This document shows, piece after piece, positions 42,044-45,123 of a DNA stretch of 64,000 nt. The stretch comes from Melioribacteraceae bacterium (GTDB lineage Bacteria > Bacteroidota > Ignavibacteria > Ignavibacteriales > Melioribacteraceae), in assembly GCA_030584085.1 (NCBI GenBank), contig CP129490.1, positions 1,149,511 through 1,213,510 on the forward strand. Direction: 5' to 3'. Made by a program: the position numbers and the translations under genes. The notes below the pieces were generated by a model, which worked only from the letters and a program-made list of their open reading frames with translations, was not told where the DNA came from and did no database searches. Position 1 is the stretch's first letter. Every line of letters starts with the position of its first letter.

Positions 42044-42102
42044 TTTGAACTAGACCCGCTTAATAGATATATTTGTTTCACTATTCACAATCGAAGTTAA
42101 AA

Positions 42103-43470
42103 ATGAAAGAAATGATCAGAATTGCATCCGGACAAGGATTTTGGGGTGATTTAATTGATGCACCGGTTAAACAAGTTACTGCCGGTGACATTGACTACCT
42201 CGTAATGGATTACCTTGCCGAAGTAACAATGTCTATTCTTCAGAAACAGAAAAATAAAAATCCCGAGTTTGGCTATGCTAGAGATATCCCTTCATTGATG
42301 GAACGTATATTACCGGATTGCAAAGAAAAGGGAATCAAAGTTATTACCAACGGTGGCGGTGTTAATCCGGAAGGATGTGCAAACGCAATCATTGATGTCG
42401 CAAAAAAACTCGGTATAAAAAATTTAAAAGTTGCAGTTGTTCTTGGCGATAATATAAAAAATAGAATTGATGAAATAATAGCTTCCGGTTGTGAATTAAA
42501 TAATATGGAAACCGGATTCTCAATTATTCCAATCAAAGATGAACTGCTTAGTGCTAATGTTTATTTCGGTGCTCGACCAATTGTTGAAGCTCTACAAAAA
42601 GGAGCAGATATTGTAATTACAGGAAGAACAACCGATACCGGTCTCACACTTGCACCAATGGTTTTTGAATTTGGCTGGGATTGGGAGAATTATGATTTAA
42701 TTTCCGCAGGAACCGTTGCCGGTCATATTTTGGAGTGCGGTGGACAAGCATCCGGTGGAAATCTTCTTGCAGATTGGGAATCAATCGATTTGGTTGATAT
42801 CGGTTTTCCGATTGCAGAAGCATATCCGAATGGTGAAGTAATAATCACTAAACATGAATCACTCGGTGGAAAAGTAAGTTTTGAAACTGTCGCAGAACAA
42901 TTAGTTTATGAAATCGGGAACCCGGAAGAATACATTACTCCCGATTGCGTCGCGGATTTTACTTCAATAAAATTAGAAGATTTAGGAAACAATCGAGTTA
43001 AAGTTTATGATGTAAAAGGTAAACCAGAAACAGAGTTTTTCAAAGTTTCATGTTCCTTTGCTGATGGATTTTCCGCAAGCGGACAATTGACATATACATG
43101 GCCTAAAGCTTTGACAAAAGCAAAAGCTGCCGATAAAATTTTGCGTGAAAGATTACAAAATCTTGAACTAGAGTTTCAAGAAATTCATACTGAGTTTATA
43201 GGTTATGATTCATGCCACGGTCCTTTATCAAGAGAGTTGGATGAAAATGATATCAATGAAATAGTTCTTAAAATAGGTGTCCGTTCATCTGATTATAAAG
43301 CGGTTGAACGATTTGGTAAAGAAATTGCTCCCTTAATTTTAACCGGACCTCCTTCAGTAACCGGGTTTGCCGGAGGCAGACCAAAACCAAGTGAAGTTGT
43401 CGCTTATTGGCCGGCACTTATTCCCAAAAAATTAATGAAGTCGGAAGTAAAAGTTTTGGAGGTAAAATGA
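42103..43470 (+). CDS. AtuA-like protein (DUF1446, acyclic terpene utilisation family)
   Basis: 455 residues from ATG 42103; an upstream in-frame TTG at 42073 is less likely. The family opening 'IRIASGQGFWGD' is followed by 'DYLVMDYLAEVTMSIL', 'VITNGGGVNPEGCANAI', 'DIVITGRTTDTGLTLAPMV' and 'GQASGGN' in order. AtuA of Pseudomonas is encoded with geranyl-CoA carboxylase genes, but its chemistry is unclear to me, and no carboxylase is nearby here. It overlaps the next small gene in ATGA, matching the two-part architecture of longer homologues. Confidence 0.82.
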   Translation: MKEMIRIASGQGFWGDLIDAPVKQVTAGDIDYLVMDYLAEVTMSILQKQKNKNPEFGYARDIPSLMERILPDCKEKGIKVITNGGGVNPEGCANAIIDVAKKLGIKNLKVAVVLGDNIKNRIDEIIASGCELNNMETGFSIIPIKDELLSANVYFGARPIVEALQKGADIVITGRTTDTGLTLAPMVFEFGWDWENYDLISAGTVAGHILECGGQASGGNLLADWESIDLVDIGFPIAEAYPNGEVIITKHESLGGKVSFETVAEQLVYEIGNPEEYITPDCVADFTSIKLEDLGNNRVKVYDVKGKPETEFFKVSCSFADGFSASGQLTYTWPKALTKAKAADKILRERLQNLELEFQEIHTEFIGYDSCHGPLSRELDENDINEIVLKIGVRSSDYKAVERFGKEIAPLILTGPPSVTGFAGGRPKPSEVVAYWPALIPKKLMKSEVKVLEVK

Positions 43471-43796
43471 GAATTAAATTAATAGACATTGCGCACGGAA
43501 GAAGCGGTGATAAAGGCGATGCCGGTAATGTTGGAGTAATCGCTTACGATGAAAAAGGTTATAAATTCATTCAAAAATATTTGACTAAAGAAAGAGTAAA
43601 AACTCACTTCAAAGGAATTTGTTTCGGTGAGGTTGAACGCTACGAAATGCCGAACATTAGAGCTATTAATTTTGTGTTAAACAATACACTCGGTGGCGGC
43701 GGGACTGTTTCGTTAAAGCACGATGCACAAGGCAAAACTTTAGCATCCGCCATGCTTAGAATGGAATTAGAAATTGACGAAAACGAATTAAATTAA
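43467..43796 (+). CDS. AtuA-associated small protein (C-terminal domain encoded separately)
   Basis: 109 residues from ATG 43467; a longer in-frame start at 43407 would lie well inside the AtuA-like gene and lacks support. The conserved opening 'IKLIDIAHGRSGDKGDAGNVGVIAYD' (read in pieces) and 'NFVLNNTLGGGGTVSLKHDAQGKTLA' match the domain that in many genomes is fused to or encoded next to AtuA. It probably forms a complex with its neighbour. An SD (GGAGG) precedes the start. Confidence 0.8.
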   Translation: MRIKLIDIAHGRSGDKGDAGNVGVIAYDEKGYKFIQKYLTKERVKTHFKGICFGEVERYEMPNIRAINFVLNNTLGGGGTVSLKHDAQGKTLASAMLRMELEIDENELN

Positions 43797-43814
43797 TTAT
43801 AGGAGATATCCAGA

Positions 43815-44916
43815 ATGTTTGAAGAATACAGAAAAGAAGTTGAAGAATATTCCGGCAGAGTAAAAGAATTACGAGGTTATCTTTAAGGTAGATGAAAAAG
43901 TTGCAAAAATAGATTCGATGCAATATGAAACCCAGTCTAATAACTTCTGGGATGATCAACAGAAAGCGCAGCAAATACTTCAAAAAATAAAATCACTTCA
44001 AGATTGGGTTGATATTTGGAATGTAGTAAACGATAAAACAAATAATCTATTTGAGTTTATTGAACTCGCCGAATCCGAAAAAGATGAATCTCTTTCAGAA
44101 GAAATAGAAAAAGAAATTGATTCATTAAAAAAATCTTTAGATGATCTCGAATTCCGCAATATGCTTAGCGGAAAAGATGATACGAAAAATTGCATTCTTA
44201 CAATTCATTCCGGTGCCGGTGGTACTGAGGCACAAGACTGGGCGGAAATGTTAATGAGAATGTATCTGCGTTACGGTGAACAAAACGATTTCAAAATGAC
44301 TTTACTTGATATGCTTGAAGGCGACGGAGCCGGAATAAAAAGTGCTACAATCGAAGTTGAAGGTGAATTTGCATACGGTTATCTAAAAGCTGAAAACGGT
44401 GTACATCGTTTGGTTAGAATATCTCCGTTCGATTCTAATAAAAGAAGACACACATCTTTTGCATCGGTGTTTGTAATACCGGAAGTTGATGATACAATTG
44501 AGATTGATATTAATCCGGCTGATCTCAGAATTGATACTTATCGTGCGGGTGGTAAGGGCGGACAAAATGTCAACAAAGTTGAAACAGCCGTTAGAATTAC
44601 TCACATCCCGACTAATACTGTTGCGGCATGCCAAAGTGAACGCTCACAATCACAGAATAAAGTAAACGCGATGAAGCTTCTTAAATCGAAAATGTATCAA
44701 AAGGAATTGGAGAAACAAGAAGCCGCACTTGATGAAATTGAAAAATCGAAAATGAAAATTGAGTGGGGAAGTCAGATTCGTTCTTATGTTTTCCATCCAT
44801 ACAACATGGTAAAAGATCATCGTACAAATGTTGAAACATCTGATACACAAGGTGTGATGGATGGTAATCTTAATAATTTTATAAAAGCGTTCTTATTAAA
44901 GTTTTCTAATAATTGA
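43815..44916 (+). CDS. prfB: Peptide chain release factor 2, requires +1 programmed frameshift
   Basis: Two overlapping frames. The first runs from ATG 43815 for 23 codons to '...LRGYL' and then a TAA at 43884-43886. Skipping one base (43884) continues in the +1 frame at AAG 43885 through 44916, giving a 366-residue protein, the normal RF2 length. The second frame contains the RF2 stop-recognition tripeptide SPF ('[12 protein letters not shown]') and the hydrolysis motif GGQ ('[13 protein letters not shown]'). An SD (AGGAG) precedes the first ATG. RF2 terminates at UGA and UAA. The arrangement matches known RF2 autoregulation except that the internal stop is UAA instead of UGA. Confidence 0.93.
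43873..43887 (+). promoter_or_regulatory. prfB +1 frameshift signal (SD-like GAGG, CTT slippery codon, TAA stop)
   Basis: GAGG (43873-43876) acts as the internal SD-like element, followed by TTAT, the slippery codon CTT (43881-43883) and the in-frame stop TAA (43884-43886). In the classic cassette the order is an SD-like G-rich run, then CUU UGA C. Here UAA replaces UGA and G follows it. The peptide before the shift, LRGYL, is the same as in the well-known RF2 site. Confidence 0.85.
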
Positions 44917-45002: not shown

Positions 45003-45123
45003 GCGGTCATTCTGAATGTAGCGAAGCGGAATGAAGAATCTCACCCAGAATAAATTGAGATTTTCAAAAATATTCGGATGAGATTCCTCACTCACCCAAA
45101 TACGGTTCGTTCGGAATGACGCT
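45003..45123. repeat. Dispersed imperfect palindromic repeat (MITE/REP-like)
   Basis: The outer ends GCGGTCATTCTGAA and TTCGGAATGACGC are near-perfect reverse complements. Inner segments AAGAATCTCA and TGAGATTCCTC also pair, so the whole about 120-base segment can fold into one long hairpin. The motif 'tcattctgaa...agcgaag...gaatctca' is one I remember as a recurrent intergenic repeat in Bacteroidota-related genomes. It separates prfB from yjbQ and contains no gene. Confidence 0.65.

Follow-up and report, generated by a model that had tools for sequence, protein, structure and literature searches.

prfB, which encodes release factor 2, is the textbook example of a gene able to sense the protein it makes; the UGA at its frameshift site has been taken as nearly obligatory. 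What, then, becomes of this switch when the stop is UAA? Such a site is found in a Melioribacteraceae bacterium (contig CP129490.1), within the window, i.e., the whole stretch of 64,000 nucleotides that was analysed, and the preliminary description was correct in pointing out that UAA is also a codon of RF1. A clade that swapped a codon read by RF2 only for one read by both factors, while apparently keeping the switch, would constitute a natural experiment on the reasons for using UGA, in which near relatives with UAA and UGA (e.g., G118 and G033, from one genus) provide matched pairs.

The prfB gene spans positions 43815-44916 of the forward strand. Its leader ORF (43815-43886) is preceded by AGGAG at 43801-43805, starts with the ATG at 43815, and runs for 23 codons to an in-frame UAA. 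It contains an internal SD-like element, GAGGU (43873-43877), whose last G is 4 nt from the CTT, and ends with the slippery CTT (43881-43883) and the stop TAA (43884-43886), i.e., a site at 43881-43886 where a +1 slip from CUU to UUU is predicted. The first codon of the shifted frame is AAG (Lys, 43885-43887), the G of which (43887) is the +4 base after UAA. From this codon onwards, the RF2 body (43885-44916) extends in the +1 frame for 343 aa to a TGA at 44914-44916; it has intact SPF and GGQ motifs and matches the NCBIfam prfB profile TIGR00020 with 515.4 bits (cut-off 370). Upstream, the body frame is open only as far as a TAA at 43861-43863, and it has no ATG, GTG, or TTG between this TAA and an ATG at 43918, so full-length RF2 requires a shift. 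The sequence and its translations thus bear out the 23-codon frame ending in CTT TAA G and the RF2 body in +1 from AAG that were described at the outset, and sequence, profile, and relatives together confirm that prfB has here a +1 frameshift site whose stop is UAA. The locus has the elements of such a site: an RF2-coding body in the +1 frame relative to the leader stop, the slippery CUU U, and an internal SD-like element that is weak and fits the anti-SD of the host. It departs from the usual form, UGA then C, in having UAA then G. The stop should nevertheless be readable by its product, judging from the motifs, because UAA is a codon of RF2 and the RF2 of the window has SPF and an Ala at position 246. 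The genome is a single contig of 3.74 Mb with one prfB, one intact prfA, and RF3.

The prfB of E. coli (AGGGGGUAUCUU UGA C; PMC8710568) shares with this gene the short leader, the SD-like element, the CUU, the in-frame stop, and the +1 body. The window site differs from it by having UAA instead of UGA, G instead of C at +4, Lys instead of Asp at the junction, and a weaker SD-like element with a spacer of 4 nt instead of 3 nt. The gene of F. johnsoniae (AGGAGGUAUCUU UGA C), whose frameshift is placed in the Bacteroidia in the same paper (PMC8710568), has the same design but differs by its UGA C and its perfect SD-like element; as printed there, the sites of both species have three bases between AGGGGG or AGGAGG and CTT. 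The UAA site is itself known, a fact missing from the preliminary description. The prfB consensus has been written YTT_TRA_C (PMC3711429), and Prince, Lin and Feaga (2025, PMC12421855), in a survey of 8,164 genomes that have the motif, report CTTTAA variants, which share UAA as the premature stop with the prfB described here, in 1.4% of them. They describe TAA as randomly distributed, not broadly fixed in particular clades, and poorly tolerated. Our literature search found no paper naming both prfB and Ignavibacter-. What the present analysis adds is a clade in which UAA is fixed and a form of the site with UAA-purine and Lys.

We searched 164 genomes of the order, which we take to be Ignavibacteriales because RF2 frames identical to those of database records tie family f1 to Melioribacter and Melioribacteraceae and family f3 to Ignavibacterium and Ignavibacteriota, among others. 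An RF2 match was found in 149 genomes. Five of these, where the match begins inside the body at a contig end, were left out and one genome (G027) was added separately, giving 145 loci, among which 2 were truncated (G023, G403), 5 lacked the frameshift (genus g19), and 138 had a readable site. Two of the sites (G031, G027) were read by eye and stand outside the +4, AAG, and RF3 counts below, G027 also outside the tree. The stop is UAA in 66 sites, UGA in 72, and UAG in none. In f1, the family of the window, UAA outnumbers UGA by 50 to 16, and the corresponding counts are 2 and 3 in f2 and 14 and 53 in f3. To the question, raised with the preliminary description, of whether UAA is found in relatives, the answer is that it is fixed in much of the family of the window (50/66 sites). 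Every called site of the order has CTT and an SD-like element.

Among the matches listed, 64 less similar loci (L051-L114) gave 50 readable sites, all UGA, besides 3 without a slippery site and 11 that the script could not parse. No tested 200-base stretch is common to any of these 64 and the parsed genes of the order; some of them may nevertheless belong to the order, as one (L060) has the coordinates of a contig of the order (G427) and another (L052) is titled Ignavibacteriales, neither of which yielded a site. A class-wide pattern specific to UAA matched 55 of 391 genomes. The sample includes 45 genomes of the order known to have UAA, and the pattern recovered 43 of these, missing G044 and G051; the other matches were 3 genomes of the order, with chance hits alone, and 9 from the 300 genomes that lie outside it. 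Among 13 doubtful matches that were inspected, only one of the 9 outside the order lay at prfB and none of the 4 inside did. The reversed pattern, used as a control, also matched many genomes, as chance predicts. The pattern requires an SD-like context, and its recall of 43/45 applies to the order and may differ elsewhere. By this census, UAA sites are concentrated in the order. The single prfB match outside it (L299 in G175, from another family of the class) is a separate gene with CTT TAA C and a GGGGG SD-like element, and is likely to be an independent switch.

How old is the UAA form? Our trees were built from RF2 only, without a mixture model, and many of their deep forks are weak. The wide RF2 tree (149 rows, with the odd codon left out) implies at least 14 changes between UAA and UGA, compared with 47 when labels are shuffled, and its well-supported branches force only 3. 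A clade in which all 30 genomes, from 8 genus groups, have UAA is supported by bootstrap 100 and SH-aLRT 98 in the family tree, where one outgroup row falls inside, and by SH-aLRT 99 in the wide tree. Read from these trees, the UAA form arose long ago and has been inherited within this lineage. The change counts give no direction, and it is the UGA of the more distant loci that suggests that UGA is ancestral to UAA. Switches still occur, because genus g32 holds both UGA-C (G033) and UAA-C (G118). Sites with UAA-C, UAA-T, and UGA-A were all seen, and are possible intermediates between the two forms. The mechanism is known; it is the distribution of the UAA form that is unexpected, since a swap known as a rare oddity is, on this sample, common and long established in this branch. 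The fixation of UAA in 30 genomes of 8 genus groups contradicts the poor tolerance of UAA that was concluded in print from a lack of clade fixation (PMC12421855).

The bases around the stop differ between the two forms. After UAA, G is the commonest +4 base (35 of 65 sites), followed by A (25), T (3), and C (2); after UGA, C prevails (62 of 71 sites), with T at 6 sites and A at 3. The junction residue is Lys at 60/65 UAA sites and Asp at 68/71 UGA sites. This Lys is encoded by AAG in 35 of the 60 cases, where the codon use of the same RF2 genes predicts 12.9, or 15.8 once the following base is matched, and the Asp by GAC in 62 of 68 (17.9 expected from the same genes). Neither observed count was attained in any of 20,000 simulations. 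When each genus is represented by a single genome per state, AAG still accounts for 19 of 35 (7.5 expected), even if shared ancestry is only partly removed from the tests of both codons. The +4 base alternates between A and G within genera g2, g7, g52, and g17. We take the excess of AAG at UAA sites as a sign of maintenance. The use of GAC at UGA sites agrees with the role of +4 C, a known weak-terminator context (PMC12421855). For AAG at UAA sites of prfB, no equivalent turned up in the literature that we searched. Ordinary UAA terminators have another context, because the UAA codons that end ORFs (n=215, from 21 UAA-site genomes) are preferentially followed by U (44%, with G at 16%). The genome of the window encodes tRNA-Lys with anticodons CTT and TTT and tRNA-Leu with anticodon GAG. 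AAG may be filled faster since both tRNA-Lys are present.

The internal SD-like element had been described as reduced to GAGG and discussed together with UAA. It is indeed weak: the genome has a normal anti-SD (GGATCACCTCCTTT), with which GAGGU forms a duplex of computed energy -7.1 kcal/mol, compared with -10.7 for an E. coli-like site, and an element of equal strength accompanies 4.1% of the 1,160 CTT triplets in the RF2 bodies of 80 genomes. The frameshift efficiency could be low because of this weakness. The tie to UAA does not hold, as a weak element is a trait of the lineage common to UGA relatives (mean duplex energy of -7.09 in UAA genomes and -7.24 in UGA genomes). Nor is a weak element needed for UAA, because the UAA sites of genus g9 (L123, L172) have a full AGGGGG.

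We looked for causes of the UAA form in stop-codon usage, base composition, release factors, and the SD-like element. Stop-codon usage was compared in 20-kb stretches, 20 from UAA-site genomes plus the window (359 ORFs) and 20 from UGA-site genomes (293 ORFs). The shares of UAA, UAG, and UGA are 59.9, 18.1, and 22.0% in the former and 60.1, 18.8, and 21.2% in the latter, and the median share of UGA per genome is 23% and 17%, respectively (P 0.19); these figures come from a simple script applied to ORFs of at least 120 codons, mostly 10 to 19 per genome, a design that small shifts would escape. The GC content is also similar, at 0.390 (UAA) and 0.385 (UGA) in RF2 bodies and at 0.363 and 0.356 in the 20-kb stretches (P 0.25). 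In the samples read, UAA and UGA genomes are alike in RF1 and RF2 motifs and in SD strength. RF3 (prfC) is present in 16/65 UAA genomes and 38/71 UGA genomes (Fisher P 0.0008). By family, the UAA and UGA fractions are 12/49 and 2/15 in f1, 4/14 and 33/53 in f3, and 0/2 and 3/3 in f2. Because RF3 presence tracks family lines, we neither read it as linked to UAA nor exclude a link.

Which regulation would such a site allow? At position 246, counted here by its place relative to GGQ and occupied by Thr in E. coli K-12, all 143 parsed RF2 genes have Ala (20) or Ser (123). UAA plus +4 G or A is perhaps a stronger terminator than UGAC; a stronger terminator would lower RF2 output. Both release factors read UAA when RF2 is of the Ala/Ser-246 type, and in E. 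coli with a B-type RF2 ribosomes are about six times as dense on prfB as on prfA (526 and 87 RPKM; PMC5373646). One RF2 gene (L008, in G031) reads GGK in place of the catalytic GGQ, which is probably a sequencing error and would otherwise mean an inactive RF2.

Taken together, the architecture and its conservation make us confident that the prfB of the window is a working programmed +1 frameshift gene with UAA as its sensor stop. In the mechanism that we infer, from the occurrence of frameshifting and its efficiency to the strength with which each release factor acts, the ribosome would, as in E. coli, translate the leader of 23 codons and pause with tRNA-Leu (GAG) on CUU while UAA occupies the A site, and the internal SD-like element would hold it there. 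A release factor binding UAA would free a short peptide. When none binds, tRNA-Leu would slip to UUU, Lys-tRNA would take AAG, and RF2 would be made. RF2 would still repress its own synthesis, since it reads UAA, and RF1 would also be able to terminate there, with the consequence that the site would sense mostly RF2 and partly RF1. The best reading of these loci is that the autoregulation of RF2 is intact and acts at a stop open to RF1 as well. The UAA site is possibly less sensitive to the level of RF2, as was proposed early on, and this loss may be modest because an RF2 of the Ala/Ser-246 type reads UAA. If prfB were expressed as far above prfA here as in E. coli, RF2 would do most of the termination at UAA and the loop would lose little sensitivity, while RF1 would gain some say. 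A bolder version, which we put forward tentatively and hold to be less probable than its negation, is that the switch is a sensor of the combined pool of RF1 and RF2, with its own context code (UAA-purine, with AAG favoured as two Lys tRNAs serve it) kept by selection throughout the history of a multi-genus clade. If this were true, the level of RF1 would also set the synthesis of RF2.

The alternative that survives best is that regulation is relaxed, UAA being a step towards the loss of RF2 autoregulation in which RF1 terminates and RF2 is poorly sensed. Genus g19 (L135, L190-L193; 5 genomes), in the UAA-rich family, has its prfB in one frame without a CTT-stop and with K or R at the old junction, as if the frameshift had been lost from a UAA ancestor. 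Because this nearby genus lost the frameshift, RF2 autoregulation is not indispensable in f1, and F. johnsoniae without the frameshift shows no obvious fitness loss (PMC8710568). A number of arguments go against this alternative, which we hold to be rather unlikely. First, CTT, the SD-like element, and the AAG bias persist across the 30-genome all-UAA clade. Second, the SD duplex energies given above are nearly equal in UAA and UGA genomes. Third, the site was truly lost in only 5 of 145 loci, all of them in g19. The suggestion of relaxed regulation in the preliminary description has g19 in its favour and is otherwise not supported by the sites.

A second alternative is that RF1 in this lineage reads UAA poorly, in which case a UAA site would behave like a UGA site. 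It had been proposed that RF1 may be weak, and this finds no support in the data: prfA is intact in the genome of the window, and the RF1 motifs PxT and GGQ are present in all 20 of the RF1 genes that were read, 11 of them in UAA genomes and 9 in UGA genomes, even if such motifs do not gauge activity. UAG makes up 18-19% of ORF stops in both groups of genomes, which means that RF1 is needed and looks normal. A weak RF1 seems very improbable to us. Among the 20 RF1 genes, that of L287 (G006) differs from the remaining 19 in the surroundings of its GGQ (ASGAGGQHVNKTDS), possibly by gene transfer or contamination.

It is more improbable still that RF2 is made without frameshifting, by internal initiation at the ATG at 43918 or by re-initiation after UAA. 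This ATG is in frame and only 31 nt past the stop, but its Met is not kept in G002, L009, L010, and other relatives whose printed translation covers it; a start there would lose the first 11 residues of the body and would leave the CTT and SD elements unexplained. Finally, it is hardly conceivable that the site stems from an error in sequencing or assembly, or that the gene is dead: many relatives are MAGs and single-base errors happen, but CTT TAA G is also found in a genome of the same species (G417) and in one of the same genus (G002), UAA accounts for 66 of the 138 sites of the order, and the 343-aa RF2 frame is intact in a genome without a second prfB, where only this gene and prfA were found. 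UAA in relatives and the order census thus dispose of the option, considered early on, of an assembly error among relatives with UGA only. The RF2 frame of G417 is identical to that of the MAG SURF_28 (L035); the fourth genome of the genus (G001) had no RF2 match and is uninformative on the site.

The surroundings of the gene deserve a brief mention. An AtuA gene and a gene with an AtuA ferredoxin-like domain (Pfam) lie directly upstream of prfB, at 42073-43796, and an AtuA-like gene also adjoins prfB in L008. After prfB, at 45029-45093, GAATGAAGAATCTCA recurs in imperfect inverted copies, which may represent a terminator or else a mobile repeat of short length; as many matches occurred in 4 of 100 shuffles of the window.
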